From assembly GCF_018599245.1 (NCBI RefSeq), contig NZ_JAHEVJ010000003.1, forward strand, positions 359,813 to 423,812: DNA of 64,000 nt, in the 5' to 3' direction. Origin of the DNA: Aliiroseovarius lamellibrachiae. GTDB lineage: Bacteria; Pseudomonadota; Alphaproteobacteria; Rhodobacterales; Rhodobacteraceae. The translations under genes were made by a program, and so were the position numbers. The first letter of the stretch is position 1. The number at the start of each line of letters is the position of its first letter. The notes below the pieces were generated by a model. The model saw only the letters and a program-made list of their open reading frames with translations, was not told the origin of the DNA and did no database searches. Of the stretch, positions 27,210 through 41,470 are shown piece by piece.

Positions 27210-27245
27210 CCGGCGGGCAGGGTGGCCCGCAAAAAGGAGATGACG

Positions 27246-28238
27246 ATGTTTAAAGCGCTGGTAATGGAGCAGGGCGAGGATGGTTTGGCCGCGGCTGAGA
27301 TCAAAGAGATCGAGGCGGCTGCGCTGCCCGAGGGCAATGTGACGGTTGCGGTGGAGTATTCCACCGTGAACTACAAAGACGGGCTGTGCCTGTCGGCCAA
27401 AGGCGGCGGGCTGGTGCGCAACTATCCCCATGTGCCGGGCATTGATTATGCAGGCACCGTTGAGGCGTCGGAGGACGCGCGCTACAAACCCGGCGACAAA
27501 GTGGTGCTGACCGGTTGGCGCGTGGGCGAGGCAACTTGGGGCGGTTATGCGCAGAAGGCGCGCATTTCAGCCGATAAGCTGGTGCCGCTGCCCAAAGGGC
27601 TTGATACCCGTCAGGCGATGGCGGTGGGCACGGCGGGATTTACCGCAATGCTGGCGGTGATGGCGCTTGAGGATCACGGGCTGAAGCCCGGCAATGGTCC
27701 GGTGCTGGTTACGGGTGCTGCGGGCGGTGTTGGTTCGGTTGCCACGGCGATTTTGGCCCATCTTGGCTATGAGGTTGCGGCCGTCACGGGGCGTCCCGAT
27801 CAGGCGGAGTATCTGAAATCGCTGGGGGCCACCACCATTGTCGCCCGAGAGGAACTGAACGAAACCACCAAACGTCCGCTTGAGGCGGAAACCTGGGCGG
27901 GGTGTGTGGACGCGGTGGGCGGCGAGATGCTTGCGCGTGTTTTAGGTCAGATGAAATACGGGGCAAGCGTGTCTGCGGTGGGGCTTGCGGGCGGCGCTGG
28001 GCTGCCGGCCACGGTCATTCCCTTCCTTCTGCGTGGGGTGAACCTGTTGGGTATTGATAGTGTGATGCAACCGACCGAGAACCGTCTGCGCGCATGGGAA
28101 CGCATTGCCACCGATCTGCCGATGGACAAGTTGGAGGCGATGATCCGCCCGGCCAAACTGTCTGATTTGCCCGCGCTGGGCGCCGATATCCTGAAAGGTC
28201 AGGTCAAGGGGCGTGTTGTGGTGGATGTGAACGCCTGA
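27246..28238 (+). CDS. acuI: Acryloyl-CoA reductase AcuI
   Basis: This 330-aa medium-chain reductase (quinone-oxidoreductase type) reduces acryloyl-CoA to propionyl-CoA with NADPH, detoxifying a product of DMSP breakdown. It shows STVNYKDGLCLSAKGG, VPGIDYAGTVEASEDARYKP, and the cofactor loop VLVTGAAGGVGSVATAILAH. The C-terminus (DILKGQVKGRVVVDVNA) is typical of AcuI. ATG 27246 has AAGGAG at 27234-27239; ATG 27240 is too close to it. The gene is the last of its operon; its terminator was split by the mobile element downstream. Confidence 0.92.
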   Translation: MFKALVMEQGEDGLAAAEIKEIEAAALPEGNVTVAVEYSTVNYKDGLCLSAKGGGLVRNYPHVPGIDYAGTVEASEDARYKPGDKVVLTGWRVGEATWGGYAQKARISADKLVPLPKGLDTRQAMAVGTAGFTAMLAVMALEDHGLKPGNGPVLVTGAAGGVGSVATAILAHLGYEVAAVTGRPDQAEYLKSLGATTIVAREELNETTKRPLEAETWAGCVDAVGGEMLARVLGQMKYGASVSAVGLAGGAGLPATVIPFLLRGVNLLGIDSVMQPTENRLRAWERIATDLPMDKLEAMIRPAKLSDLPALGADILKGQVKGRVVVDVNA

Positions 28239-28276: not shown

Positions 28277-28295
28277 AAAGGGCGCCCATTTGGGT
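28277..28295 (+). terminator. Left half of a terminator split by the mobile element
   Basis: AAAGGGCGCCC-ATTT-GGGT here and GCCCTTTT at 40109-40116 are the two halves of one 11-pair stem with an ATTT loop (one G-U pair). With the insertion removed it lies between acuI and the convergent trhO and would serve both. The insertion point is next to the loop; the duplicated 10 bases include the loop. Confidence 0.85.
28286..28295 (+). repeat. Target site duplication, left copy
   Basis: CCATTTGGGT directly precedes the left terminal inverted repeat; the identical 10 bases in the same orientation follow the right repeat at 40099-40108. This is the footprint of a transposition event. Confidence 0.93.
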
Positions 28296-28320
28296 CCAGC
28301 CTGTGCGATAAATGTTGAAA
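28296..28320 (+). repeat. Left terminal inverted repeat (25 bp)
   Basis: It begins CCAGCCTGTGCGATAA and ends TGTTGAAA. Every base matches the reverse complement of 40074-40098. It abuts, without gap, a second and different inverted repeat starting at 28321. Confidence 0.95.
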
Positions 28321-28363
28321 CCTCCCGCAAATAATTTGTGACGCATTCTCACCTATAGGACAT
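28321..28363 (+). repeat. Second inverted repeat, left copy (~43 bp)
   Basis: It begins CCTCCCGCAAAT and ends CCTATAGGACAT. The reverse complement of 31627-31673 matches with two substitutions and a two-base gap. A GC hairpin lies about ten bases inside both copies, so the two ends look built alike. They probably bound an older nested element. Confidence 0.88.
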
Positions 28364-28372
28364 GGCCAAACG

Positions 28373-28409
28373 ACGCTGCCGGATTGATTTCCGGCAGCGT
28401 TTTGTTTTT
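28373..28409 (+). terminator. Terminator just inside the left end, stopping rightward transcription
   Basis: ACGCTGCCGG-ATTGATTT-CCGGCAGCGT followed by TTTGTTTTT is a ten-pair stem with a T run on the plus strand. Coming from acuI, polymerase would stop here, compensating for the broken host terminator and shielding the element from readthrough. Confidence 0.9.
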
Positions 28410-28514
28410 GCGCCATAATTTTTTCAAATTCATCTGCCAGATGAGGCTTGTTCGTGCACGGCCAGAGGTCCGCACGAGAAAAATTTCAAATACTGAGTAA
28501 TAGGCCCTTTGGAA

Positions 28515-29575
28515 ATGCTCGATCAAGCCAATGTAGCTGATACGAAACACAAACTCTTGACCGAAACTTCGAAGGGCAAACGCTTGGGCAAGAGTATTCC
28601 ACAACTGTCGTTGGAGCAGATCTATCCAGCACAAAATGGTGATGTAAACCTAAATACCTGCGGCGATCCTGATTGCGGCAACTATGGCATCGCACCTGAT
28701 AGCATCCACAATGCTTTTCGCGGCAGAAATGCTGGACAACGGCGATTAGCTGCATCTTTGAAGAACTCTGGCATCAACATGGGCGTGGGCTGATATCGCT
28801 TTCATGGCGGAAAAGATGACAAGAAATACGAAACAGTATTGCTCTGGAATACGCGGATGATCCTCACTCTTGGGATGATAATCGCTCTGTGAAATGCCAG
28901 CACACAGCGCGAAACTCTGAATGCGGGATTCAGTTTAAAGTTCTTTCAAACGAACACTTTGCAAAAGAAGAAGAGCGTTTCCTATCACAAAATGGTCTGC
29001 TTGATGGACCAAGCTGCGGGCATTGCGGGACAACTTACCTATCCGCGCCTGAAGAGTTTGTTTTCAATGGGGCAAACGGCAAGAAAACGACCACCAAAGG
29101 CAAATCAAAAGCCATAGGTGTGCGTATGATCCACGAGCCCTGCAAGGGCAAAACGGGCGCGCGCTTTACGGTTTCTCAATCTCATATCCGGCAACAGGAC
29201 CGGCGAGAGAATATCCGAATTCTCAAACACCTGGTTAACGATGCAAGCATCAACGGATTGAAGCGGTTGCTGATGCCGGCAAAAGGAAAACGTAAAGTCG
29301 GGGTGAAAAGGATCTACGACCGCATTTTCTGGCTTGAGAAAACCCTGCTTGCATACGGAAAGATAACACTGGTTGGAGAGCAGGAAGCCGCTATGGCTCG
29401 CACCGTTCCTCACATATTTCGAGACATGATCAAAGATGATCGCTTTGAGTGGCATGTCATCTCGTTCGACAAGGACGCGACCAAGCCAACGCGACAGAAA
29501 CGAGCGAAAGAATATGACAAAATGATGAAGGAAACCGACGGGGACGGCTATCGCTTGCTGAGATACGCGCAATAG
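28515..29575 (+). pseudogene. Decayed transposase, distant relative of the gene at 38236-40026
   Basis: Two plus-strand pieces (28515-28793 and 28820-29575) together resemble the 596-aa transposase-like protein. Shared features: NTCGDPDCGNYG here against NFCRNPHCEAFG there, a further Cys pair (SCGHC), FTVS against FSVG, and a helical segment ending WLEKTLLAY. The first piece ends at an in-frame TGA (28791-28793), and a frame change near 28850 is needed to continue. After LLAYGK the text jumps to EQEAAMARTVPHIF, like the region around the second catalytic Asp. The catalytic core is therefore probably deleted. Sequence distance shows it is not a recent duplicate. Confidence 0.65.
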
Positions 29576-29632
29576 CACCTGTTTAGGGCCGCAGCGAGAC
29601 CCCGGCAGCCATCGGCAACACCCCTGTTGGGG

Positions 29633-30187
29633 CTATCCTGCGCAGCCCGAAAAGAACGTTTGTTTTGCATATCTGGCTGCATCGCTGGGCGACAGATCGC
29701 CCGAACTGACCAGCACCCAGGCCGCCGCGAAGGTGCTGTCAAAAACCGCGACAATCCATTCTGAAGGAATGTCGCGGTTGATCTCGCCCCGTTTTTTGGT
29801 TTGCTTTACAAGGGCCTGCATGTCCTTTTTCCAACCGGCTTCGATCTTGACCAGGTCCTTGTCGTTTTGGACCTGGGACCAGATGCCAGCCATGAACTGA
29901 TACCTGTCTGCGAGCGGCATCAGCAGGTCGAAAATGGCCTCAAACGCGGCGCGGCCCTTCAGGTGCTCAATGCCCTTCAACGCGATTTCGGTCTCTTTCA
30001 TGCAGTCCACAACGAGCGCCTTGATCAGAACCTCGCGCGTTTCGAAATGCCGATAAAGCGTCGCCCGCCCCACGTCTGCGGCAATGGCAATTTCTGACAT
30101 TGCCGCAGACGGATTGGTGATCAGCGTCTTGAGAGCTGCTTCAACGATGGCCGTTTCAGATTGCACAAGGCGCTGATCCCGTTTCAT
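29633..30187 (-). CDS. TetR/AcrR family transcriptional regulator
   Basis: This 184-aa regulator has the TetR HTH near residues 26-52 (AMSEIAIAADVGRATLYRHF-ETREVLI) and an all-helical ligand domain behind it. Its start ATG 30187 lies five bases after the stop of the lipoprotein gene, so the two form one transcript. TetR proteins usually repress their own operon; the promoter at 31254-31282 is the likely target. The ligand is unknown. It is cargo of the left nested element and is unlike core-genome neighbours in having no obvious metabolic partner. Confidence 0.88.
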   Translation of the reverse strand: MKRDQRLVQSETAIVEAALKTLITNPSAAMSEIAIAADVGRATLYRHFETREVLIKALVVDCMKETEIALKGIEHLKGRAAFEAIFDLLMPLADRYQFMAGIWSQVQNDKDLVKIEAGWKKDMQALVKQTKKRGEINRDIPSEWIVAVFDSTFAAAWVLVSSGDLSPSDAARYAKQTFFSGCAG

Positions 30188-30192
30188 GAGCG

Positions 30193-31224
30193 TTATTCGA
30201 CCACCTTTGTGAATTTGATGAACAGCCCCTTGTCGGCGGCATCATTTGATCCGACTTTTGGGCTGGAAACGTTCAACAAGCAATGGTTTTCGTCGCTGTT
30301 CAGATTGGCGCTCCAGCGGGCGTCTTCCATACCGCGCCCTTGATCGTCGAGAGGCTGATAGATCAGCTGCGATTGGTCGTCTGATAACCAGGCTTCGAAC
30401 GCGGCGGTCATGGCGTCATTGGAGACCATGAAGCCGGTGAACCGGTCCTGCTCTGAATTCCACGACGTCAGGGACGATCCGAAATAGCCGTCACCCGCGT
30501 CCGCTTCGAACTTGAAGTTGATGAACATCGCGTGGCCACCCAGGATGAGTTCGATGGATTCATCGCCAAGGATGGGCGAACCCTGATAGCTGCCCTCCTG
30601 ACGGTAGAACCCCGCCATGCAGGCGATGCGGTTCGTGTCGTCAGACAGCGGCACTTGGGCACCCACTTTGAACAGGTCAACGTCCAGCGCCTCAGAGCTG
30701 CGCTGATAGGTGCCTTCAAAGCTGACAAACGGCGTTCCGCCATCCACAGCACGCATCCGGGACACCGTGTAGGTGTTGCCCGACAGCTCCATTGTCGTCT
30801 GATCAACGACGGCTTGACCTTGCGCGTTCATGGTCGTGCGCGTGACCATGAATTCGGTGTCGCTGATGCGGGTCATCGGTTCTTTGCGCGCACCCAGCCC
30901 GTCATTGCCAACGGTCAGGTGAACAGGGTTTTCAGTGCCCCAGTCCCAGCCCAGAAACGACAGGGTCGCGATGGGTTGCGCGGCGCCCGTGTCGATGATT
31001 TCCCGTTTTTCCATCAGAACATCATCGTAGGCCGGCGTGTAGATGACCTCAGATGTCCAAGGGGTGCCCTGGCTGCCTGCATCTGAATAGAGGGTGCCTG
31101 AACCTGTCCAGCTGCCGGTGAACTCATGCAGTTCGCCCAGGGTTTTCATTCCTTTACCTGGGTAGCACGCCGAGACGAGAAGGAGGGCCGAGATGGCCGA
31201 GATGGCCAAGAGCAGATGTTTCAT
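30193..31224 (-). CDS. Putative lipoprotein of unknown function
   Basis: This 343-aa protein starts with a lipoprotein signal (MKHLLLAISAISALLLVSAC), with Cys 20 as the expected lipidation site. The mature part has repeated beta-rich stretches (LGELHEFTGSWTGSGTLY, PVHLTVGNDGLG, FVSFEGTYQRSS, AMFINFKFEADAGDGYFGSS). This suggests two similar beta-barrel-like (lipocalin or DUF1579-like) domains, which is only an impression. ATG 31224 is chosen because AAAGGA lies a good distance upstream; ATG 31230 is too close to it. It leads the two-gene operon with the TetR regulator. Confidence 0.7.
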   Translation of the reverse strand: MKHLLLAISAISALLLVSACYPGKGMKTLGELHEFTGSWTGSGTLYSDAGSQGTPWTSEVIYTPAYDDVLMEKREIIDTGAAQPIATLSFLGWDWGTENPVHLTVGNDGLGARKEPMTRISDTEFMVTRTTMNAQGQAVVDQTTMELSGNTYTVSRMRAVDGGTPFVSFEGTYQRSSEALDVDLFKVGAQVPLSDDTNRIACMAGFYRQEGSYQGSPILGDESIELILGGHAMFINFKFEADAGDGYFGSSLTSWNSEQDRFTGFMVSNDAMTAAFEAWLSDDQSQLIYQPLDDQGRGMEDARWSANLNSDENHCLLNVSSPKVGSNDAADKGLFIKFTKVVE

Positions 31225-31253
31225 TTTCATATCCTTTGTGTGTCTTGACATGG

Positions 31254-31282
31254 GACATAGGTGTATCAAAACCGGACGTCAA
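31254..31282 (-). promoter_or_regulatory. Promoter of the lipoprotein-tetR operon
   Basis: On the minus strand, -35 TTGACG (31282-31277) and -10 TATGTC (31259-31254) have a 17-base spacer. The start would fall near 31247, about 20 bases before the lipoprotein ATG. A TetR site probably overlaps, but I see no perfect dyad. Confidence 0.55.
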
Positions 31283-31626
31283 GATATGAGGCATGCATGT
31301 ATCATAAAAATTAAACTCGGAAGAAATCCCATTTAGGTGGCAAAGGTCAAACCGGCTTAACAGATCCCAGTTCAGACCGTGGAAAGTTGCCATCGGCGCA
31401 ATTGTCGAGAACGGAAGCTAAGTCCCGCCAGTCCTGCCGCTCAGGCAGGCAAAATGCTGCACCATTTTTCGAACAACAGGTTTCGGGAAGCTGCGATGCA
31501 GCGATTTGTTGTCAGGCGAATGGCGGGTCTGGGCCGTCAACATCAGATCGTCACGTAGACGACCAACTCAAATTGCGGACCCTCCAAAGGGTTTCCTCGG
31601 CAGATAAGCTGCCGAGGACCCACTCA
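31283..31626. other. Non-coding stretch inside the element
   Basis: These 344 bases lack a convincing gene; a plus-strand frame at 31387-31641 has Ser/Arg/Gln-rich composition and no ribosome site. A hairpin, CCTCGGCAG-ATAAG-CTGCCGAGG (31595-31617), lies ten bases inside the second inverted repeat, mirroring the arrangement at the left end. Confidence 0.5.
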
Positions 31627-31673
31627 ATGTCCTATAAGTGAGAATGCGTCAAATAATTTGCGGGAGGTTTTTC
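31627..31673 (-). repeat. Second inverted repeat, right copy (~43 bp)
   Basis: It begins ATGTCCTATAAGTGAG and ends GCGGGAGGTTTTTC. In reverse complement it matches 28321-28363 nearly throughout, bounding a 3.35-kb segment that contains the decayed transposase and the lipoprotein-tetR pair. No flanking duplication was found. Confidence 0.85.
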
Positions 31674-31730
31674 TATGACTACGGTCCGAACTAATTCCTA
31701 TTGGTTGATCGATTTTTTTTTGGAGCAAGT

Positions 31731-32105
31731 ATGCGAATAGGATCATTTGGCCTCTTCTGGAAGGATCAGGCGGATAGAGATGCACAAGACTTCATAGAAG
31801 CAAATTTTGCGCCAATCTCTGAATTTTCATCAGAAGAGAAAGGTCTGTTCCTGGAAGAGGCGCGACTGATAAGAAAAAGGGGAAAGGTGACGGTAAATGC
31901 CTCCGCGGTGCTGGCTTTAACCAAACTTCTCGCGTTGAGAGTGGCCTTGCCCAATGATGCTTCCATGCCTCTAAGACATTGTTGCCGAGACATGGAACTT
32001 TTCATTAAAAAGGCTGCCTGGAAGACTGATAGCGACCCTATTGTTCTGGCCGAATACTTCATCGCTCTGCGAAACCAATACTGCGAAAAAGAATTCGAAG
32101 CCTAA
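31731..32105 (+). CDS. Hypothetical 124-aa protein beside hsdR
   Basis: The protein begins MRIGSFGLFWKDQADRDAQD and is predicted mostly helical (PISEFSSEEKGLFLEEARLI, then VNASAVLALTKLLALRVALP). It has two cysteines in a RHCCRDMELF stretch but no membrane segment or known motif. TGGAG at 31721-31725 precedes ATG 31731. It is convergent with hsdR, with seven bases between the stops. Lying between the nested element's right end and the restriction genes, it could be an accessory or unrelated defence gene. I do not recognise a family. Confidence 0.6.
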   Translation: MRIGSFGLFWKDQADRDAQDFIEANFAPISEFSSEEKGLFLEEARLIRKRGKVTVNASAVLALTKLLALRVALPNDASMPLRHCCRDMELFIKKAAWKTDSDPIVLAEYFIALRNQYCEKEFEA

Positions 32106-32112
32106 TTTCTCT

Positions 32113-35100
32113 TCAGGAAATTTCTGTTGCGAGCGCTTCAGCTTGCTTCAGAACCGTTTTGATGGCGTCTGATGTGAGATCAGGCGGATATCCGTGTCGC
32201 TGAAGGATCTTCTTCACCGCAATCCTCATTTTCGCGCGCACATTCTCACGACGCCACCAATCAGCACCCGCATTCCCCCTGACTGTCTTGACCAACTCGG
32301 CCGCGATAACTTGGAGTTCATTGTTGGACATGATCTCAACAGCGCTGTTATTCTGCGCGAGCGCGTCATAGAACGCGCGTTCGTCCGTCGTAAGGCCGTC
32401 GTCAGGCTCTGCGCGAAGGTCTTTCGCAATTTCGATCAGCTCTTGAATGATCTGAAGCGCATCAACACTGCGATTATGGTAGCGCCCAATTGCCACCTTA
32501 AGGCGTTGAGAGAACTCGTCTTTCTTGACAACGTTGCTTCGAGTCCGCGCACTGATCTCTCCATTTAGAAGCTTTTTCAGTGCTTCCACTGCGAGATTTT
32601 TATGCTGCATGTTCTGAAGCTCGATCATGAACTCCTCGGAGAGCATGCTGATGTCAGGTCGGTCAAAGCCACAAGCGCCGAGAATGTCGACCACTTCCGT
32701 TGAAGCGACAGCATTGTTGACGAGCTGCTGAATTGCAAAATCCGACTGCCCACTCTTCTTGCCCTTGCGATCAGCATCGAGCTTTTCGATCCCCGTTCGA
32801 ACCGCTGAGAAGAACGCCACTTCGACAGCATGCTCGGTCGCCTGAGGGCTGCCTGATGCCAGCTTGAACGCCTTTACCAGCGCAGCAACCGCGTCCTGGA
32901 ACCTTTTGACGGATGCGCCATCATCTTGGATGCTTTTGTTTAGGATGTGTTCAATCGCGGGTGGAAGAACCTTGATCCTGTCTTTCGACGATCCATCAAG
33001 CACATCAGCATAGTCATACCCAAAAAACTGTTGTCGCGCGACATCCAATGCATCAAGAAACGCGGAGACAGCCTCCGCCTCATTGACACCCGTCTGTTTC
33101 TGATCGGACTGCGAGTAATGCGCGAGGGCATTCTTCAGGTCCGCAGCAATCCCAATGTAATCAACGACCAAGCCAGCTGGCTTACCTTTGAACACCCGAT
33201 TCACGCGCGCGATGGCCTGCATCAAGCCATGTCCCTTCATCGGCTTGTCGACATACAGCGTATGCATGCAAGGCGCGTCAAAGCCGGTCAACCACATGTC
33301 CCTGACGATCACGAGCTTCAATGGATCAGCTGGATCTTTGTATCGATTGCGAATGGCTTCCTGTCGGGACTTCGAGCGGATGTGAGGCTGCATCGCCGCC
33401 GGATCTGTTGCGTTGCCGGTCATGACAACTTTCACCTCTCCGGTGTCATCTGTATCTCCGTGCCATTTGGGGCGTGTCGCAACGATACGATCGTAGACTT
33501 CGGCGCAAATCCTGCGGCTCATACACACAATCATGGCTTTGCCATCGATTGCCTCAATGCGCGCATCGAAGTGTTGGAGAATGTCTGCGACAACAGCGTC
33601 CAGCCGGTTGTCTGCCCCCACAAGAGCCTCAACCCGCGACCATTTCTTGGCTGCGGCGTCAGTCTCTTCTTCTTCGAGCTCTTCAGTTGCGTCGTCGAAT
33701 ACCTCGTCAATTTCGTCAGCAAGGTCTTCGTTTAGCTTAATCTTCGCAACCCTCGCCTCATAATAGATTGGCACAGTAGCGCCATCTTCGACGGCCTGAG
33801 CGATGTCGTAGACGTCGATGTATTCGCCAAACACGCCGCGTGTGTTCGCACCTACCAACTCAACAGGTGTCCCTGTGAAGGCCACATAGACGGCATTCGG
33901 CAGGGCCTGGCGAAGCTGATAGGCGAGGCCGTATTTCACATCGCCTTCCTTGGTCATCTTCGCGTCGAACCCGTATTGGGTGCGGTGCGCTTCGTCGACC
34001 ATGACGATGACATTCGAGCGATCCGTGATTTCTGGGAACTCTCCGCCAGCGTCTGGTCGGAACTTCTGAATGGTCGAGAAAACAACGCCACCTACATCAC
34101 GATCCAACAGCGATTTTACATCACTAATGCTGTCTGCCTGCACAGGTTCTTCACCCAGAATGTCCTTACAACGCGCGAAGGTGGCGAACAGTTGGTTGTC
34201 CAAATCATTGCGGTCCGTCAGCACCAACAGGGTTGGGTTTTCAAGCTGAGGATCATGCATGACCCGCCCAGCAAGGAAGGTCATCAGGAGCGACTTACCC
34301 GAACCCTGCGTGTGCCAGATCACACCCGCTTTGCCGTCCTGTCCACGGGCACTGGCGATGGCGTCCATGGCTTTGCGCACGGCAAAGAACTGGTGATAAC
34401 CGGCGACCTTCTTGATCGGGCCTTTGCCCTCATCCTCGAACACCACACACCAGCGCAGCAGATCAAGCAGCGTCTGACGGTTCAACAATCCTCGCGCCAG
34501 CGTTTCCAGCGCAAGATCCGTGCCCGCAGGAACAAGCGTCTCACCGTCGAGCGTGCGCCATGTCATGAAACGGTCGAGATTGGCCGAGAGCGAACCATAG
34601 CGCGCCGTGAACCCGTCGCTGATCACATTGAGCAGCGTCGTTCGGAACAGATCAGGGATATCTGCCTTGTAGGTCTCGATCTGGTTGAAGGCGGCTTCGA
34701 TATCCTTGCCCTCGGTGCCTTTCAGCTCAATCACGACCAATGGCAGCCCGTTGAGGAAGATGACCATATCGGGGATGCGAGGGGCTTTGCCCACGACGTC
34801 GACCTGATTGACCGCACGCCAGTCGTTGTTCTGGTCTTCCCAATCAACCAGATGCACAACCGCGCCGCGCTCTTCGCCGTCTTGCACATAGGTGGCTTTG
34901 ATGCCTTCAACCATCAGCCGATGAATACGCCGGTTTTCCTGCACGACGTCGGTGGTGAAAACGGGGTCGAGAATTTTCTTGGAGGCGTCGATCAAGGCCC
35001 GCTCGGGCAGATCGGGGTTGATGGCGCGCAAAGCATCCATGAAAACGGGTTCCAGGATGGTATCGCGGTTGCTGGCGCGCAGGGCGGGTTTCACATCTGG

Positions 35101-35193
35101 CGAAAGCTGCGCACCATGCATCAACTGACAGCCCAGATCGCCCATTTCTTCCATCAGGAAGTCTTCAAGATCGGCTTCAATCAAAAACGCCAT
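32113..35193 (-). CDS. hsdR: Type I restriction enzyme subunit R
   Basis: This 1026-aa motor-nuclease cuts unmodified DNA after translocation. The N-terminal PD-(D/E)xK nuclease reads RIPDMVIFLNGLPLVVIELK (residues ~140-160). Helicase motifs are GVIWHTQGSGKSLLM (motif I, ~297) and VMVDEAHRTQYG (DEAH box, ~396), with later FTGTPVELVG and QAIARVNRVFKGKPAGLVVD. Full length suggests function. ATG 35193 or the GTG three bases before it could start it; AGGTGA lies just upstream. It is last in the hsdM-hsdS-hsdR operon, 57 bases after hsdS. Confidence 0.95.
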   Translation of the reverse strand: MAFLIEADLEDFLMEEMGDLGCQLMHGAQLSPDVKPALRASNRDTILEPVFMDALRAINPDLPERALIDASKKILDPVFTTDVVQENRRIHRLMVEGIKATYVQDGEERGAVVHLVDWEDQNNDWRAVNQVDVVGKAPRIPDMVIFLNGLPLVVIELKGTEGKDIEAAFNQIETYKADIPDLFRTTLLNVISDGFTARYGSLSANLDRFMTWRTLDGETLVPAGTDLALETLARGLLNRQTLLDLLRWCVVFEDEGKGPIKKVAGYHQFFAVRKAMDAIASARGQDGKAGVIWHTQGSGKSLLMTFLAGRVMHDPQLENPTLLVLTDRNDLDNQLFATFARCKDILGEEPVQADSISDVKSLLDRDVGGVVFSTIQKFRPDAGGEFPEITDRSNVIVMVDEAHRTQYGFDAKMTKEGDVKYGLAYQLRQALPNAVYVAFTGTPVELVGANTRGVFGEYIDVYDIAQAVEDGATVPIYYEARVAKIKLNEDLADEIDEVFDDATEELEEEETDAAAKKWSRVEALVGADNRLDAVVADILQHFDARIEAIDGKAMIVCMSRRICAEVYDRIVATRPKWHGDTDDTGEVKVVMTGNATDPAAMQPHIRSKSRQEAIRNRYKDPADPLKLVIVRDMWLTGFDAPCMHTLYVDKPMKGHGLMQAIARVNRVFKGKPAGLVVDYIGIAADLKNALAHYSQSDQKQTGVNEAEAVSAFLDALDVARQQFFGYDYADVLDGSSKDRIKVLPPAIEHILNKSIQDDGASVKRFQDAVAALVKAFKLASGSPQATEHAVEVAFFSAVRTGIEKLDADRKGKKSGQSDFAIQQLVNNAVASTEVVDILGACGFDRPDISMLSEEFMIELQNMQHKNLAVEALKKLLNGEISARTRSNVVKKDEFSQRLKVAIGRYHNRSVDALQIIQELIEIAKDLRAEPDDGLTTDERAFYDALAQNNSAVEIMSNNELQVIAAELVKTVRGNAGADWWRRENVRAKMRIAVKKILQRHGYPPDLTSDAIKTVLKQAEALATEIS

Positions 35194-35250
35194 CACATCA
35201 CCTGTAAATCATCTTTTGGGCAAACGCCCGAATATGAAGAGGCAGCCGCA

Positions 35251-36579
35251 TCACGCGATTGCCTCTACTTGTTCTTTGGCCTCACCCACGCGCAACTCAC
35301 CGGACATCAGGCGCGGGAGAAGCGTGTCTCGCAGGGCGGCGAGGGTTTGGTTTTCTTCGGACATGGCGTGAATGCGCTCAAACCAGTTTCCACAGACCTC
35401 ACCGAAGGCTTGAAGAAGACCATCTGTTGGTTTGATCACCTCGATCTCTGCAAAAGCTTTGGGGGGCACCCGCTGGTGGCTGTTGGATGTGCCAGTTACC
35501 CTAAAAAGGGCCTCATCACGGAAGTTTGCCGAGGACATCAGGCAATAAAGCCAGGGCGTTTGAAGTTCATGAAGCGCCTTGGCGACATAGAACTCCGTCG
35601 AAGAAGCAGGAATTGCCGCTTCTTCATCTGTCTGCGCCCACCACACGCGGGATATCGACGGATTAAGGCGCGAAAACAGAATTGCATTGTTTGGAACAAA
35701 CAGCTTGTTGCTTTTGATATCTTTGCCGTTTTCTAAGACAGGAACGCGCCCAGTATCGAATGCTGGCAGGCTGAAATGATGGAATGGCTGATCTGGCTGA
35801 TCCATCGGTTTCACCGTCTGTTTTACATGCTCACAGACTGCAGAAACCGTCGACTGTTCCCACCCCTCCGGCAGGCCATTCTCGCCGAAGCTGTCGGGGA
35901 AGAGAGCGGCGGTGGCGGCGTCCATGTGGGCGGGGGTGCGGCCTGCGGCTTTGGCGTGGACGGGGTCGAAGTCAACGAACCACGACCGATAAAGCGCCTG
36001 CGCCAACTCTTCCAGCGTCGCCGCCGTCTTGCGGTTCACCTCAATCTTGTCATCCAGCGCCCCGAGGATCGCCGCGATCTCGAGTTGTTCTTCTATATTT
36101 GGGATATCGATTTCTGCGCTAAGTATTTGAGCTGGCGAGAGATTTGCTTGCCCCCCAGAGCTGGTAGCAATCGCAATGAATTGCTCTTGATAGGGAAACG
36201 AACTCAGCAAATACCCCATAAAGCGAATACTCGCCTGCTTTTCCTTTTTGAGACGGAGCGCCCCGACTCGCTGATTCAGAAAGTAAGGTGTCGCCCTGTC
36301 AAAGAAGGCGACTTTACCAACCCATGTCTCCGGCGAACCGTCATGCCGGTTCCCTGACATGCTGATGAGAAGGTCCTGAGGCTTAGCAAGTTTGTTGGCG
36401 CGTTCCGTTAAGAATTTGTCCGATACATAAGAGAACTCATGCTCACTGAAGAAACCTGCTTTTACGTTTTTGATCTTAATAACTGGAACGCCTTGATCAA
36501 TGAAGTCTCTGCTTTTGAAGGCGAAACCATTTTCAAGCTCAAACAAGTCACCGACGGACAAAATTTGGCGACTTATCAT
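35251..36579 (-). CDS. hsdS: Type I restriction enzyme specificity subunit S
   Basis: This 442-aa subunit picks the DNA target for methylation and cutting. Two target-recognition domains are visible, each followed by a conserved helical spacer: IEEQLEIAAILGALDDKIEV (residues ~165-185) ending EELAQALYRSWFVDFDP, and SEENQTLAALRDTLLPRLMS near the C-terminus. The recognised sequence cannot be read from the protein. Its ATG overlaps the hsdM stop by four bases, so the two are co-translated. Both halves look intact. Confidence 0.94.
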   Translation of the reverse strand: MISRQILSVGDLFELENGFAFKSRDFIDQGVPVIKIKNVKAGFFSEHEFSYVSDKFLTERANKLAKPQDLLISMSGNRHDGSPETWVGKVAFFDRATPYFLNQRVGALRLKKEKQASIRFMGYLLSSFPYQEQFIAIATSSGGQANLSPAQILSAEIDIPNIEEQLEIAAILGALDDKIEVNRKTAATLEELAQALYRSWFVDFDPVHAKAAGRTPAHMDAATAALFPDSFGENGLPEGWEQSTVSAVCEHVKQTVKPMDQPDQPFHHFSLPAFDTGRVPVLENGKDIKSNKLFVPNNAILFSRLNPSISRVWWAQTDEEAAIPASSTEFYVAKALHELQTPWLYCLMSSANFRDEALFRVTGTSNSHQRVPPKAFAEIEVIKPTDGLLQAFGEVCGNWFERIHAMSEENQTLAALRDTLLPRLMSGELRVGEAKEQVEAIA

Positions 36580-38096
36580 TTCAACTCCCCCAAACGATCT
36601 TCGATCTGCGCTTCCAGCCGCCGTCCCTCGGCAAACTGCTGGCGCAAGGCCCTCATCAGGCGGGTGAACTTTTCCTCAAAGGGTTCGCCGTCATCCTCCA
36701 CCTCTCCTGCGCCGACATAGCGGCCTGGGGTCAGGACGAAGTTGTGTTTGGCGATCTCTTCGGTTGTGGCTGACTTGCAGAAGCCCGCGACGTCTTCATA
36801 TGCGCCTGCGTCCGGCTCACCCCGCCAAGCGTGATAGGCGGTGGCGATTTTCTCGATTTCCACGCGCGACAGCTCTTTTTGCTTGCGCGATCCCGGCACC
36901 AGCGCGCCCATCTTGCGCGCGTCGATAAACAGCACCTCACCGCGACGGTCGCGCAGCTTTGCGTCCTTGGCGATACCGTTGGATTTATCCTTGGCCAAGA
37001 TCCACAAGCAGGCCGGGATCTGCGTGCCGTAGAACAGCTGCCCCGGTAGGGCGACCATGGCATCGACCGCGTCGCCTTCGACCATGGCGCGGCGAATATC
37101 GCCTTCGCCACCAGACATGGACGACATCGAGCCATTGGCCAGCACCACGCCGCCGATCCCCTTGGAGGACAGGTGCGTGTGAATGTGTTGGAGCCACGCG
37201 TAGTTCGCATTGCCGACAGGCGGCGCGCCGAATTTCCAACGCGCATCCTCGCGCAGCAGATCACCGGACCAGTCCGAGATGTTGAACGGCGGGTTGGCGA
37301 GGACATAGTCAAAGCGTTCATCCGGGAAGGCATCTTTGAGCAGCGTGCCTTCGGAATTCCAACGGATCTCCGCAAAGATACCGCGAATGGCAAGGTTCAT
37401 GCGCGCCAGACCATAGGTGGTGTGGTTGCGTTCCTGACCATAGATGGCAATGTCGTTCTTCTGGCCTTTGTGTGCGTCGATGAACTTTTCCGACTGCACA
37501 AAAAAGCCGCCAGTGCCGCAGCAGGGGTCATAGACGCGGCCTTTGGTGGGTTCGATCATCTCGATCAGCGTGTCAACTACGGGTTTGGGCGTGTAGAACT
37601 CACCACCGCGTTTGCCCTCGGCAGATGCAAATTCACCGATGAAGTATTCATAGACGCGGCCGATCAGGTCGAAGTCTTCATCGTTGCCAGCCAGCTTGAA
37701 GTTGGTGAACAGGTCCATCAAGCCCGACAGCATGCCACGGTCCATGCTTTCCTTGCCATAGACCTTCGGGAGCGCACCTTTCAGGCTTTCGTTGTCAGCC
37801 TCGATCGCGCGCATGGCATCGTCGAGCATGACACCGATCTCTGGGCTTTTGGAATTCTTGGCCAGAAAAGACCAGCGCGCCTTTTCCGGCACCCAAAAGA
37901 TGTTCTCGGCCAGGTATTCGTCGCGGTCTTCTGCGTCCGAGTATTGGTCCTCGGAAAGTGTATCGTGCAAACGCTGAAAGGACTCCGAGACATATCGGAG
38001 GAAGATCAGGCCAAGAGCCACGTGTTTGTATTCGCCGGGGTCCATATTGCCCCACATTTTGTCTGCTGCGGCGAAAAGGGTGGTTTCGATGCTCAT
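36576..38096 (-). CDS. hsdM: Type I restriction-modification DNA methyltransferase subunit M
   Basis: This 506-aa subunit adds methyl groups to adenine N6. The SAM-binding motif I is RVYDPCCGTGGFFVQ (~residue 190) and the catalytic motif IV is YVLANPPFNISDWS (~267). The N-terminal HsdM helical domain (MSIETTLFAAADKMWGNMDP) is present. It is first in the operon. GAGGAAG just before ATG 38096 is the ribosome site. Upstream lies a perfect dyad at 38147-38163. Methylation before restriction, as required to protect a new host, is favoured by this order. Confidence 0.95.
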   Translation of the reverse strand: MSIETTLFAAADKMWGNMDPGEYKHVALGLIFLRYVSESFQRLHDTLSEDQYSDAEDRDEYLAENIFWVPEKARWSFLAKNSKSPEIGVMLDDAMRAIEADNESLKGALPKVYGKESMDRGMLSGLMDLFTNFKLAGNDEDFDLIGRVYEYFIGEFASAEGKRGGEFYTPKPVVDTLIEMIEPTKGRVYDPCCGTGGFFVQSEKFIDAHKGQKNDIAIYGQERNHTTYGLARMNLAIRGIFAEIRWNSEGTLLKDAFPDERFDYVLANPPFNISDWSGDLLREDARWKFGAPPVGNANYAWLQHIHTHLSSKGIGGVVLANGSMSSMSGGEGDIRRAMVEGDAVDAMVALPGQLFYGTQIPACLWILAKDKSNGIAKDAKLRDRRGEVLFIDARKMGALVPGSRKQKELSRVEIEKIATAYHAWRGEPDAGAYEDVAGFCKSATTEEIAKHNFVLTPGRYVGAGEVEDDGEPFEEKFTRLMRALRQQFAEGRRLEAQIEDRLGELK

Positions 38097-38146
38097 GCGG
38101 CTTCCTCAAAAAGTGTTGTTTCTTGCCGAGAATATGGGGATGAAAC

Positions 38147-38163
38147 CCATTTCCCAGAAATGG
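38147..38163. promoter_or_regulatory. Dyad upstream of hsdM
   Basis: CCATTTC-CCA-GAAATGG is a perfect 7-3-7 dyad about 50 bases before the hsdM start, where it could overlap the -35 region. A control protein or the methyltransferase itself might bind here, but no such regulator gene lies in the operon. Confidence 0.4.
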
Positions 38164-38235
38164 ATTCTGCTAAATGCTTTGCGCAACCATAACGTGAAGC
38201 ATGTTTGACGCAAACCATTGTTTGGCTGGAGGAAA

Positions 38236-40026
38236 TCATTTGTATGACAACACGTCACGGACATAGATTTTTCCTTTCGTTAAGCCTAATCGCATAGCTG
38301 GCGTCTTGCCGTCGCCATCCCGTGGCACCAGCATGTAGTTGTAGTAAAACCGAAGGATGGCGACCATCTTGGGGACCATCTCGGGATTGTAGTAGGAATA
38401 GGCATGCCAGATGCGTTGATCGTTTGAGGCCGTTGGGACGCCACGTTCAAAACCCATGACGCGGCGGCGGGCTAAATTGAAGTAGGCATCCACTGGATGA
38501 ATGGTCGCATTGGCAAAGAACTTCGCCAGTCCATCCCAGCCCATGTCATCGAGATCTGTCTTCAGACGAATAAACTTGTAAGGCTCAGACTTGGTATGGA
38601 AAGGCCAAGGCACTCCTGATTTAGCAAGCTTTGCAGCGCGAGCGGCAGGAGCGAGCGAGCGGTAGTTTTTCCACAGCAAGATTAGAGTAATGGCCTGAAA
38701 ATCGCTCAAGTTCGGGAATTCGCTTTTCACCAAGGCCATGTTTTGTGCTTCAGCGGCAATCGAATTGGTAAGGGTGGCTCTGCCCTGGGCCGCCAAGACT
38801 TGCCGATCATCATTGATCATCCCTTTCTTGAAACTAATCTCCGCGACATTGACGCGTCCTGCTTTGATATTTTCTACATTCAAAGCGCAGACGGCTGCTG
38901 CGAGGCCAGCTTCATCATCAAGGCAGTAGTTCGCTGTCTTGAAGCGCTCTCCAATCAGCTTCTTCACATGCATCATATGTGCGAACTTGAAGGCATCACC
39001 GCGAACCCTGCTTCCATGCCCGGGAAGGAGTAGCTTGCCAGCTGTAGCAATATCATCCTTTGAAAAGCGCACTCCCTGCGAGCGCATGAGAGACCCCTGA
39101 TACTCGGTAGCGGACCACAGCCTTGCATGTTTACGCATGCTTCGCGGCAAATCAAAGTCGCCGCAACCTTCCATGGCACTTTCGAGGTCTTCGGGGGAGA
39201 TGCTTGCATCGTAGTCAACGGTGGCTGCCACAACGAATTGAGAAAACTTATGAACTGTGGCCATGTGCAGGAGAGGAATTGTTCCGCGTCGTTTCTTCAC
39301 GGGCCAATTGACCAAGATTGTTTGGATGTCAGTAGTGAAAAACGGCCTTCGGCCTTCGAAACACGCATCCAAACGCTTTTCCCGTTCGTGTGAAAAAGCC
39401 ACGACTTGTTTATGCAAGAAATCCACCTTGCTGTGGATCTGTTTCATACTGACATCGTGAATTTCACAGATGCGGGCGAGAGCAACCTTGTTCACCAGAC
39501 TTTTGAAGATCGCCCCTGTGTCGTCTGTCGACTTGTGCCTCCGAGTTGGTTTGCCAACCGAGAAAGTCTTTTTGCACGATTTGCACTGATATCGGGGGTC
39601 ACCTTTCGCCGTCTTGCCAAAGGACGAGTAAGAACTTGGACTAAGACAAACGGACAGGCCATGGTTCTCACAGGTCGAATTTTGGCAATGTTTTCCGTTT
39701 GTTCTCCTATCTTGTCGACGAACTCTTGAATACTCTTCAGCTACGGCACGGTTTGATTTGACTACATTTGCCACACCGCATGTTGGGCAGATATACGATC
39801 GCTCCTCGCCAGAGCCAGATAAGGTTCCTCGGTTGTCAGACGGCTTTGACCTTCCTCGTCCATCAAGGGGGTCCGGGAAACGACCAAAGGCTTCGCAGTG
39901 AGGATTCCGGCAAAAATTGATCGAAAATCCACCTGGAGTTGCTGGAAGGCGCCTCCTTGCAACTCTCGAAGATTTCTTCGGGAGCTTTTGGGATGAATTT
40001 GCCTCTGATTTTTTCGCCACAACCAA
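38236..40026 (-). CDS. Cys-rich DDE-type transposase-like protein
   Basis: This 596-aa protein begins near the right terminal repeat and reads inward. Four Cys pairs (NFCRNPHCEAFG, YICPTC, HCQNSTCENHG, YQCKSCKKTFSVG; residues 39-151) look like zinc ribbons of InsA-type transposases. A helical HTH-like part follows. An RNase-H-like core is suggested by FFTTDIQTILVNW (Asp 233), FVVAATVDYDAS (271-273) and ANYCLDDEAGLAAAV (370-372). The start is TTG 40026 or GTG 40020; no early ATG exists. It is the only apparently intact mobility gene of the element, so it probably moves it. I cannot name its family. Confidence 0.75.
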   Translation of the reverse strand: MVVAKKSEANSSQKLPKKSSRVARRRLPATPGGFSINFCRNPHCEAFGRFPDPLDGRGRSKPSDNRGTLSGSGEERSYICPTCGVANVVKSNRAVAEEYSRVRRQDRRTNGKHCQNSTCENHGLSVCLSPSSYSSFGKTAKGDPRYQCKSCKKTFSVGKPTRRHKSTDDTGAIFKSLVNKVALARICEIHDVSMKQIHSKVDFLHKQVVAFSHEREKRLDACFEGRRPFFTTDIQTILVNWPVKKRRGTIPLLHMATVHKFSQFVVAATVDYDASISPEDLESAMEGCGDFDLPRSMRKHARLWSATEYQGSLMRSQGVRFSKDDIATAGKLLLPGHGSRVRGDAFKFAHMMHVKKLIGERFKTANYCLDDEAGLAAAVCALNVENIKAGRVNVAEISFKKGMINDDRQVLAAQGRATLTNSIAAEAQNMALVKSEFPNLSDFQAITLILLWKNYRSLAPAARAAKLAKSGVPWPFHTKSEPYKFIRLKTDLDDMGWDGLAKFFANATIHPVDAYFNLARRRVMGFERGVPTASNDQRIWHAYSYYNPEMVPKMVAILRFYYNYMLVPRDGDGKTPAMRLGLTKGKIYVRDVLSYK

Positions 40027-40041
40027 GCCCGCAATAGAAAA

Positions 40042-40067
40042 CGCCCCACCAGGTTACTGGTGGGGCG
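40042..40067 (-). terminator. Terminator just inside the right end, stopping leftward transcription
   Basis: CGCCCCACCAG-GTTA-CTGGTGGGGCG is an 11-pair stem; the minus strand runs on into TTTTC. It lies between the right terminal repeat and the transposase start, so it blocks readthrough from trhO into the transposase, as some insertion sequences are known to do. Confidence 0.9.
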
Positions 40068-40073
40068 ATTCAT

Positions 40074-40098
40074 TTTCAACATTTATCGCACAGGCTGG
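40074..40098 (-). repeat. Right terminal inverted repeat (25 bp)
   Basis: It reads TTTCAACATTTATCGC on the plus strand and ends CAGGCTGG, the exact reverse complement of 28296-28320. Confidence 0.95.
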
Positions 40099-40108
40099 CC
40101 ATTTGGGT
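40099..40108 (+). repeat. Target site duplication, right copy
   Basis: CCATTTGGGT, identical and in the same orientation as 28286-28295. It is followed by GCCCTTTT (40109-40116), the right half of the split terminator. Confidence 0.93.
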
Positions 40109-40126: not shown

Positions 40127-41044
40127 TTAACGAGGTAGGGGGTCCCGCCCCAAATGACGTTCGCCGCGTTTGGCAGACAATGCCATTTGCTTTTGGCGTT
40201 CGCGGAATCGTTCCCGGCGGGCTTCGTCAAACTGGTCGATGCACTGATGACAGCTCACGCCTTGTTCAAATTCCACACGGTTTTTGTCTTCGGGCAGAAT
40301 GGGTCGGCGGCAGGCATGGCACAGCTCATGCGGGCCTTCGGTCAGCCCGTGACCCACAGAAACGCGGTTGTCAAAGACAAAGCATTCGCCTTCCCAAGTG
40401 CTCTCCTCCTTGGGGATATCTTCCAGATATTGCAGGATGCCACCCTTGAGGTGGAACACATCCTCAACCCCTTGGCTGATCAGGTAATTGGTTGATTTCT
40501 CACAGCGAATGCCGCCGGTGCAAAACATCGCCACACGTTTGTTGTGGAAGCGATCTTTGTTGTCTTGCCACCAGCCGGGGAAATCGCGAAAGCTTTCGGT
40601 TTTGGGATCAACTGCCCCCTCAAACGTGCCGATCGAGACCTCGTAATCATTGCGGGTGTCGATCACCACCACATCATCCTGCGCGATCAGATCGTTCCAA
40701 TCCTCGGGCTGCACGTAATGACCGACAGAGGCATTGGGGTCCACATCCGGCACGCCCATGGTCACGATCTCGTTCTTCAGGCGCACCTTCATTTTGCCAA
40801 AGGGCTGATCGGTTGCGGTGCTTTCTTTCCACGAGAACTCCGCGCAGCCCGGCAAAGCGCGGATATGCGCGAGCACCGCGTCGATGCCTGCGCGAGATCC
40901 GGCAATGGTGCCGTTGATGCCCTCATTGGCAAGCAAAAGCGATCCGGTCACGCCCTTGGCCTGCGCCAGCGCCAACAAGGGGGCCTGCAACGCAGAAGGG
41001 TCGTCAAAGCGGGTGAAGTGATAAAGAGCAGCGATTGTGAACAT
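40127..41044 (-). CDS. trhO: tRNA uridine(34) hydroxylase TrhO (rhodanese family)
   Basis: This 305-aa protein of the YceA/TrhO family makes 5-hydroxyuridine at the wobble base of certain tRNAs. An acylphosphatase-like N-terminal domain (SLLLANEGINGTIAGSRAG) precedes a rhodanese domain with the active-site loop MFCTGGIRCEKSTNYL. A cysteine-rich C-terminal tail (LCHACRRPILPEDKN and SCHQCIDQFDEA) may bind zinc. ATG 41044 gives the family start; the frame is open further. Its stop lies 11 bases from the split terminator shared with acuI. Confidence 0.93.
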   Translation of the reverse strand: MFTIAALYHFTRFDDPSALQAPLLALAQAKGVTGSLLLANEGINGTIAGSRAGIDAVLAHIRALPGCAEFSWKESTATDQPFGKMKVRLKNEIVTMGVPDVDPNASVGHYVQPEDWNDLIAQDDVVVIDTRNDYEVSIGTFEGAVDPKTESFRDFPGWWQDNKDRFHNKRVAMFCTGGIRCEKSTNYLISQGVEDVFHLKGGILQYLEDIPKEESTWEGECFVFDNRVSVGHGLTEGPHELCHACRRPILPEDKNRVEFEQGVSCHQCIDQFDEARRERFRERQKQMALSAKRGERHLGRDPLPR

Positions 41045-41131
41045 GTGCGCCAAATAGGCGGTTGTGGGGGCGGGATCAAGTCCCTGTGTGGGAGCGGTGC
41101 CAATGTGGACGCGAGAGATTGGAAAGAGGGC

Positions 41132-41167
41132 TTGACAATGTAGCGCTATATCGCGATATCTCGATAT
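41132..41167 (+). promoter_or_regulatory. ArsR-type operator in a leaderless promoter
   Basis: A consensus -35 TTGACA lies at 41132-41137. A perfect 12-base palindrome ATATCGCGATAT (41148-41159) runs into a second ATAT-CTCG-ATAT block (41156-41167). A -10 near 41156-41161 would start transcription at the ATG itself. No ribosome-binding site precedes 41168, so a leaderless message is likely. Confidence 0.6.
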
Positions 41168-41470
41168 ATGGATATCGACAAAGCCATTTCGGCTCTCAAC
41201 AACCCCGCTCGTCGCCAAATACTAATCTGGCTGAAGGACCGCTCAAACTTTCCACCTGCGCTGCCAGAACACGCGGATCTGGCGGGGGTTTGTGTTGGAT
41301 ATATTCAAGAGAAATCCGGCCTCTCTCAGTCGACGATTTCGACCTATATGAATGCGTTGAAGGGGGCTGGGCTGGTGTTGTCAGAGCGTCATGGTCAATG
41401 GACTTTTTATCGCCGCAACGAAGAGGTGATTGCCCAGACGTTGAAAAAGCTTTCGGAGGATCTGCAATGA
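41168..41470 (+). CDS. ArsR family winged-helix regulator
   Basis: This 100-aa regulator shows MDIDKAISALNNPARRQILI, the ArsR opening helices, and the recognition helix in GLSQSTISTYMNALKGAGLV followed by a wing (LSERHGQWTFYRRNEE). The two central cysteines of metal-sensing ArsR are absent; Cys 41 is single (AGVCVGYI). It may therefore sense an organic or redox signal. It overlaps the next gene by four bases (ATGA), so it most likely controls the reductase. The operator overlaps its own start. Confidence 0.88.
   Translation: MDIDKAISALNNPARRQILIWLKDRSNFPPALPEHADLAGVCVGYIQEKSGLSQSTISTYMNALKGAGLVLSERHGQWTFYRRNEEVIAQTLKKLSEDLQ

Follow-up and report, generated by a model that had tools for sequence, protein, structure and literature searches.

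A transposon family that inserts into predicted terminator loops and appears to supply replacement terminators from its own ends

An 11,803-bp element in Aliiroseovarius lamellibrachiae, at positions 28296-40098 of a 64,000-nucleotide stretch of contig NZ_JAHEVJ010000003.1 (the whole stretch analysed, hereafter the window), carries a type I restriction-modification system. In all likelihood it represents a widespread transposon family with four characteristics, judged from sequence: a DDE-type transposase; insertion into terminator loops; inward-facing terminators that replace the one split by insertion; and passenger genes, often for defence.

The boundaries of the element are exact (Table 1). 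Its 25-bp ends are perfect terminal inverted repeats (TIRs) with a correctly placed 10-bp target-site duplication (TSD) just outside them, an arrangement whose chance origin is unexpected in 64 kb. This end pair with its duplication received the top score in an unbiased TIR and TSD scan of the whole window. A natural empty site is present in a congener, genome G008, where both flanks are contiguous on contig C21: positions 2-350 correspond to the left flank up to 28295, positions 341-1324 correspond to the right flank from 40099, and the stretch shared by both is exactly the 10-bp duplication, CCAATTGGGT, in a single copy. No copy of the element was found at the same locus in other congeners. 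The complete transposon proposed in the initial annotation is thus confirmed, as is its expectation of an empty site in related genomes with a single 10-mer; far from being fixed at this locus, the element is absent there from G008.

Joining the flanks with a single copy of the duplication yields the sequence AAAGGGCGCCCATTTGGGTGCCCTTTT, which forms a 12-bp stem, a 4-nt loop, and a T-run; the duplication spans the loop. This target terminator is intact in G008, and originally lay between two convergent genes. Insertion into a terminator was overlooked in the earlier interpretation.

Altogether, 45 complete elements of the family were delimited by matching terminal repeats and 9-10-bp duplications. 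Nearly all of the duplications differ, so the elements represent separate insertions; copies with different duplications, anticipated initially, do exist. Each site was rejoined likewise and scored by a terminator rule that requires a GC-weighted stem, a loop at the duplication centre, and an A- or T-run, with positions shifted 25-300 bp from each site as controls. Under the strict rule, 30 of 43 sites pass, versus 68 of 7,912 control positions (binomial p about 3e-52). This first rule missed elements L046 and L138, in which A/T pairs lengthen the stem; a corrected rule, in which the GC core is the starting point for measuring the tail, recognizes 33 of 45 sites versus 33 of 8,280 controls. 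Across both rules, terminators occupy 70-73% of sites and 0.4-0.9% of shifted positions.

The strongest hairpin was also sought within 20 nt on either side of each duplication centre. A strong hairpin is present at 35 sites; at 30 of them its loop is centred no more than 1.5 bp away from the middle of the duplication, and the median offset is 0.5 bp. Remote family members follow the same pattern: one on a P. aeruginosa plasmid (32% transposase identity) is inserted in AAAAAAGGCCCTGTATCGCTACAGGGCCTTT, and another in Pontibacillus (21% identity) is inserted in AAAAAAGCAAAGGGGCCCTTTGCTTTTTT. The usual target of the family is a predicted intrinsic transcription terminator, split at its loop.

Alternatively, the transposase might read any perfect palindrome or cruciform DNA, terminators being simply the commonest strong hairpins of these genomes. 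This is a possibility to be taken seriously, albeit a doubtful one. IS1397-type elements target palindromic repetitive extragenic palindromic (REP) units; moreover, terminator arms and the A/T runs that flank them are both palindromic, and one element (L088) lies in a hairpin without a T-run. Nearly all of the strong central hairpins, on the other hand, also have an A- or T-run, and the terminators at the ends of the elements imply adaptation to terminators as such.

These end terminators are a second characteristic of the family. A strong hairpin lies just inside 83% of 90 ends, versus 4% of internal windows and 0.7% of shuffled ends. When an inward T-run is also required, 69% of the ends still qualify, versus control rates of 0.8% (internal windows) and 0.2% (shuffled ends); a T-run in the opposite orientation is much rarer (22% of ends). 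In the window, these end terminators are the top-ranked hits of an independent terminator scan. Moreover, the two characteristics are associated: elements with terminators at both ends occupy 26 terminator sites and 3 others, versus 7 and 9 for the remaining elements (p=0.0016). On this evidence, the terminator that an element splits appears to be exchanged for those that it brings.

In the most likely mechanism, the transposase would bind the ends of approximately 22-25 bp and join them to target strands cut 9-10 bp apart, with the terminator loop at the middle of this stagger. It may read the hairpin shape, the A/T runs, or both. Splitting a terminator would normally let transcription from the neighbouring gene read on. 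The inward terminators inside each end would replace the split one, stopping both neighbour transcripts and shielding the transposase and cargo genes from read-in, and this replacement would make insertion neutral. The ends, the duplications, the empty site, the identity of the target, and the hairpins with their orientation are read directly from sequence; we infer that the hairpins terminate transcription in the cell, and hence that insertion is near-neutral.

The end hairpins might instead be structures for transposase binding, or attenuators of transposase expression. Indeed, the right-end hairpin of the window element immediately precedes the start of the transposase gene, where attenuation is possible. 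Nevertheless, such roles are unlikely: hairpins are present at both ends, including the end distant from the transposase; and their sequences vary widely among members, whereas the stem and the inward T-run are kept.

One subgroup (L088, L133, and L135; ends CCAGCCGTTCTGG / CCAGCCGTTCTGGTTCGTGTGG) displays neither end terminators nor terminator targeting. It may have switched target.

The window contains a further insertion. If elements target terminator loops, then an end terminator of one element should itself receive another, and the 3313-bp second transposon occupies exactly such a position, in the loop of the terminator at the left end of the outer element. Removing this nested element and one copy of its duplication in silico restores this terminator, GAAACCTCCCGCAAATAATTTGCGGGAGGTTTTTCTATG; the 74 nt joined in this way have a predicted folding energy of -25.6 kcal/mol. 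With its own TIRs and 9-bp duplication, the nested transposon is from a related clade and inserted into the outer left-end terminator. The initial annotation, which overlooked this TIR and TSD pair, was therefore wrong to propose a single transposition event; there were two. An inner repeat, CCTCCC...GGGAGG, starting at 28318, was considered as the nested end and rejected: it has no flanking duplication and corresponds to the stem of the outer terminator, and the true ends are 28339 and 31651.

The transposase of the nested element is a decayed remnant. It resembles by eye the decayed transposase frames of element L059, and matches the outer transposase weakly (E=3e-4). No close copy of the nested element was found by DNA-level search of 296 genomes of the bacterial family. 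L059, a second-clade element on contig C2 of the same genome (9408-13594), has ends, TGGCGCATTCCGGATTTTGGGA, similar to those of the nested element. This insertion too is in the loop of a terminator, AAAAATGGCCGTCTATTTATGGCGGCCATTTTATTT, and the duplication reads TCTATTTAT. The L059 transposase is decayed, and the cargo is a coiled-coil protein, T5orf172/MUG113-like as named from its sequence.

Read from right to left, the outer element contains the 596-residue transposase gene, hsdM, hsdS, hsdR, a 134-residue open reading frame (ORF), and the second transposon. All three hsd genes lie between the ends, so the predicted type I restriction-modification cargo is complete; this supports the earlier view that transposition brought in a whole module. 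Comparison with the sister elements L044 and L074 reveals 92-95% identity for HsdR and HsdM and about 83% for the transposase, versus 37-38% for HsdS; the specificity subunit has been exchanged between sister transposons. Located between hsdR and the nested transposon, the 134-residue ORF may have an accessory or anti-restriction role. No Rfam family matches were found in the element region. Beyond the left end, the neighbouring gene is kept in 21 of 21 genomes of the genus.

Table 1. Features of the window. The two neighbouring genes are named from sequence only; TIR, terminal inverted repeat; TSD, target-site duplication; HTH, helix-turn-helix.
Feature	Position	Strand	Remarks
Left neighbour gene, quinone-oxidoreductase/AcuI-like	27222-28238	+	Reads towards element
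Split target terminator, left half	28277-28295	+	AAAGGGCGCCCATTTGGGT; right half from 40109 (GCCCTTTT)
Outer 10-bp TSD, left copy	28286-28295	.	CCATTTGGGT
Outer left TIR	28296-28320	+	CCAGCCTGTGCGATAAATGTTGAAA
Outer left-end inward terminator, left half	28317-28338	+	GAAACCTCCCGC-AAATAATTTG; split by nested element
Nested 9-bp TSD, left copy	28330-28338	.	AATAATTTG; TIR and TSD scan
Nested second transposon, 3313 bp	28339-31651	.	TIR TGACGCATTCTCACYTATAGGACAT, 24/25, at 28339-28363 / 31627-31651
Inward-facing terminator, nested element left end	28372-28401	+	End-hairpin test; independent terminator scan
Decayed zinc-finger transposase remnant, nested element	28509-29575	+	ORFs 28509-28793, 28889-29575
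TetR-family regulator, nested cargo	29633-30187	-	PF00440 above cut-off
Predicted lipoprotein-like protein, nested cargo	30193-31269	-	LxxC-like motif; no Pfam match
Nested 9-bp TSD, right copy	31652-31660	.	AATAATTTG; TIR and TSD scan
Outer left-end inward terminator, right half and T-run	31661-31677	+	In silico rejoining
134-residue ORF	31701-32105	+	Downstream of hsdR, opposite strand; no family match
HsdR, type I restriction subunit	32113-35196	-	TIGR00348, HSDR_N, T1RH-like_C above cut-off
HsdS, specificity subunit	35251-36579	-	PF01420
HsdM, N6-adenine methyltransferase subunit	36576-38096	-	PF02384, PF12161; PADLOC MTase_I
Transposase, 596 residues	38236-40026	-	N-terminal zinc-binding/HTH part; predicted RNase-H-fold DDE-type core
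Inward-facing terminator, outer right end	40042-40067	-	Upstream of transposase start; top of independent terminator scan
Outer right TIR	40074-40098	-	Reverse complement of 28296-28320, 25/25
Outer 10-bp TSD, right copy	40099-40108	.	CCATTTGGGT
Right neighbour gene, rhodanese/TrhO-like	40127-41218	-	Reads towards element

In existing records, relatives of this transposase carry no annotation beyond "hypothetical protein" or "insertion element protein". An AlphaFold2 model of the window transposase, built from 17 aligned members, has a mean predicted local distance difference test (pLDDT) score of 82. For residues 163-584 of this model, the best structural matches all are DDE transposases or integrases: ISCth4 (Z 11.6; root-mean-square deviation, rmsd, 4.4; 241 residues); Hermes (Z 10.8, rmsd 3.7, 170 residues); and Tn5 (Z 10.0, rmsd 5.2, 260 residues). 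The model indicates that the transposase has an RNase-H-like, DDE-type catalytic core. Residues D233 and D370 are invariant, even in comparison with Firmicutes relatives of 21% identity. However, ISCth4 (of the IS256 family), Hermes, and Tn5 share only 9-13% identity with the catalytic core that they match, and differ from the family in ends, duplications, and targets.

A conventional member of the IS1/IS1595 families that had acquired passenger genes would share several of these features, including a DDE-type transposase with a zinc-binding amino-terminal domain and a helix-turn-helix (here a weak match), and direct repeats of 8-10 bp also are known in the IS1 and IS1595 families. The window transposase matches the NCBIfam IS1 model over residues 135-219 only (35 bits; cut-off 100), and the IS1/IS1595 zinc-binding domain model NF050000 with 26 bits (cut-off 28). 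Nevertheless, membership in these families is improbable. No curated insertion-sequence family model was matched above its cut-off, in agreement with the initial annotation, which could name no family for the transposase; and a Pfam scan found no DDE model at E<=1, DDE_Tnp_IS1595 included. Unlike IS1/IS1595 transposases, those of this family comprise about 600 residues in a single frame with several CxxC pairs, and the elements display terminator-loop targeting and end terminators. By comparison, none of four delimited IS1595 elements from the same bacterial family, a sample too small to carry weight, lies in a terminator.

Random insertion, followed by selective retention of harmless copies in terminator-rich 3′ intergenic regions, would fit the window site between convergent genes but is most improbable: selection against harm cannot set insertion at the middle of a loop; the same neighbourhoods, a short distance away, contain so few terminators; and the host would be less affected if the terminator were spared than if it were split.

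Several observations weigh against insertion into, and replacement of, terminators by a DDE-type transposase as a general rule for the family. The terminator rule was fixed after the first nine sites had been viewed. Twelve of the 45 sites lack a clear terminator (L055, L085, L088, L097, L111, L114, L115, L118, L122, L133, L135, and L137), so terminator targeting does not extend to every lineage. Some of the 45 elements are related, so their end hairpins are not all independent. Finally, neither candidate for the third catalytic acid is universal: D513 is replaced by N in Firmicutes, and E527 by S in one clade. Designation of E527 as the certain third residue was dropped on this account.

Other mobile elements make instructive comparisons. 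The p-MULT and TnGBS DDE transposases integrate upstream of σA promoters (Guerillot et al. 2014, PMC3942029). Like the family described here, they recognize a class of gene-control signal rather than a sequence, and range from small insertion sequences to large cargo elements; their targets are promoters, however, rather than terminators. Class C (IIC) group II introns do target Rho-independent terminators, inserting downstream of the stem-loop (PMC3522654). These are retrohoming retroelements without TIRs or duplications, whereas the present family comprises DNA transposons that insert in the loop. Tn7 at attTn7 inserts in the glmS terminator region, where TnsD reads glmS; it employs several proteins, generates a 5-bp duplication, and often carries defence cargo. 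The terminator region and frequent defence cargo thus are shared, but Tn7 uses one fixed site and several proteins, whereas this family uses one transposase and many different terminators. None of these three systems places a transposon bounded by TIRs in the loops of numerous distinct terminators. A literature search of open-licence papers found no transposon family reported as inserting into terminator loops, and the family seemingly is undescribed.

Relatives of the transposase are present in the alphaproteobacteria, gammaproteobacteria, and Firmicutes. Among 391 genomes of the order, 36 contain one; a species-wide collection has 36 loci, mostly in Rhodobacteraceae with some in Parvibaculum; and 7 of 398 genomes sampled across the phylum have a match at E<=1e-30. 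Relatives are also encoded in 120 plasmid records, whose genera include Pseudomonas, Rhizobium, Acidovorax, Polaromonas, Marinobacter, Azospirillum, Vibrio, Pontibacillus, Enterococcus, and Staphylococcus, among others. The ends, about 22-25 bp, read CCAGCC...ATAAATGTTG in the clade of the window element. The smallest elements measure 1.3 kb where decayed and 1.9 kb where they carry the transposase alone; the largest reaches 11.8 kb.

Phage-defence cargo is recurrent. The hsdRMS genes are carried by the window element, L044, L046 (decayed), and L074; other elements carry MmeI-like (L131), BsuBI/PstI-like (L137), NotI-like (L136), and type IIG (L138) systems, or an Abi_C protein (L126). Sister element L044 (5653-17393), in another genome of the genus, combines hsdRMS with a type II cyclic oligonucleotide-based antiphage signalling system (CBASS) within one end pair; this set comprises a cyclase, an E2-like protein, and an HNH-SAVED effector. 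Further cargo includes a sulfatase, a GNAT protein, and, in E. faecium, the trimethoprim-resistance gene dfrG. The last belongs to L115 (11323-14598 of plasmid NZ_CP116515.1). This 3.3-kb relative is complete: its 24-bp ends (TAAGTAGTTCAGTTTTGGAGTACA) are perfect, and a 9-bp duplication flanks them. Plasmid records with a transposase of the same family number about 90 for Enterococcus and 9 for Staphylococcus, so this element may be the mobile unit of dfrG.

A broader interpretation is probable, if held with less confidence: a superfamily across Proteobacteria and Firmicutes would use terminator loops as generic safe harbours, achieving near-neutral insertion by terminator swap and serving as a vehicle for restriction-modification systems, CBASS, and dfrG on Gram-positive plasmids. 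Each insertion would add two new terminator targets at its ends. We propose that elements consequently nest and islands grow, as in the window.

If correct, these results describe a DNA transposon family that targets a functional signal, the terminator, by its shape or pattern across many genes. A single-protein integrase that finds the 3′ ends of genes could also become a tool for safe DNA insertion. That the terminator is both used and replaced suggests a simple way to land harmlessly, providing mobile defence genes with a generic safe site; this would constitute a route by which restriction-modification and CBASS genes spread and build up into defence islands.

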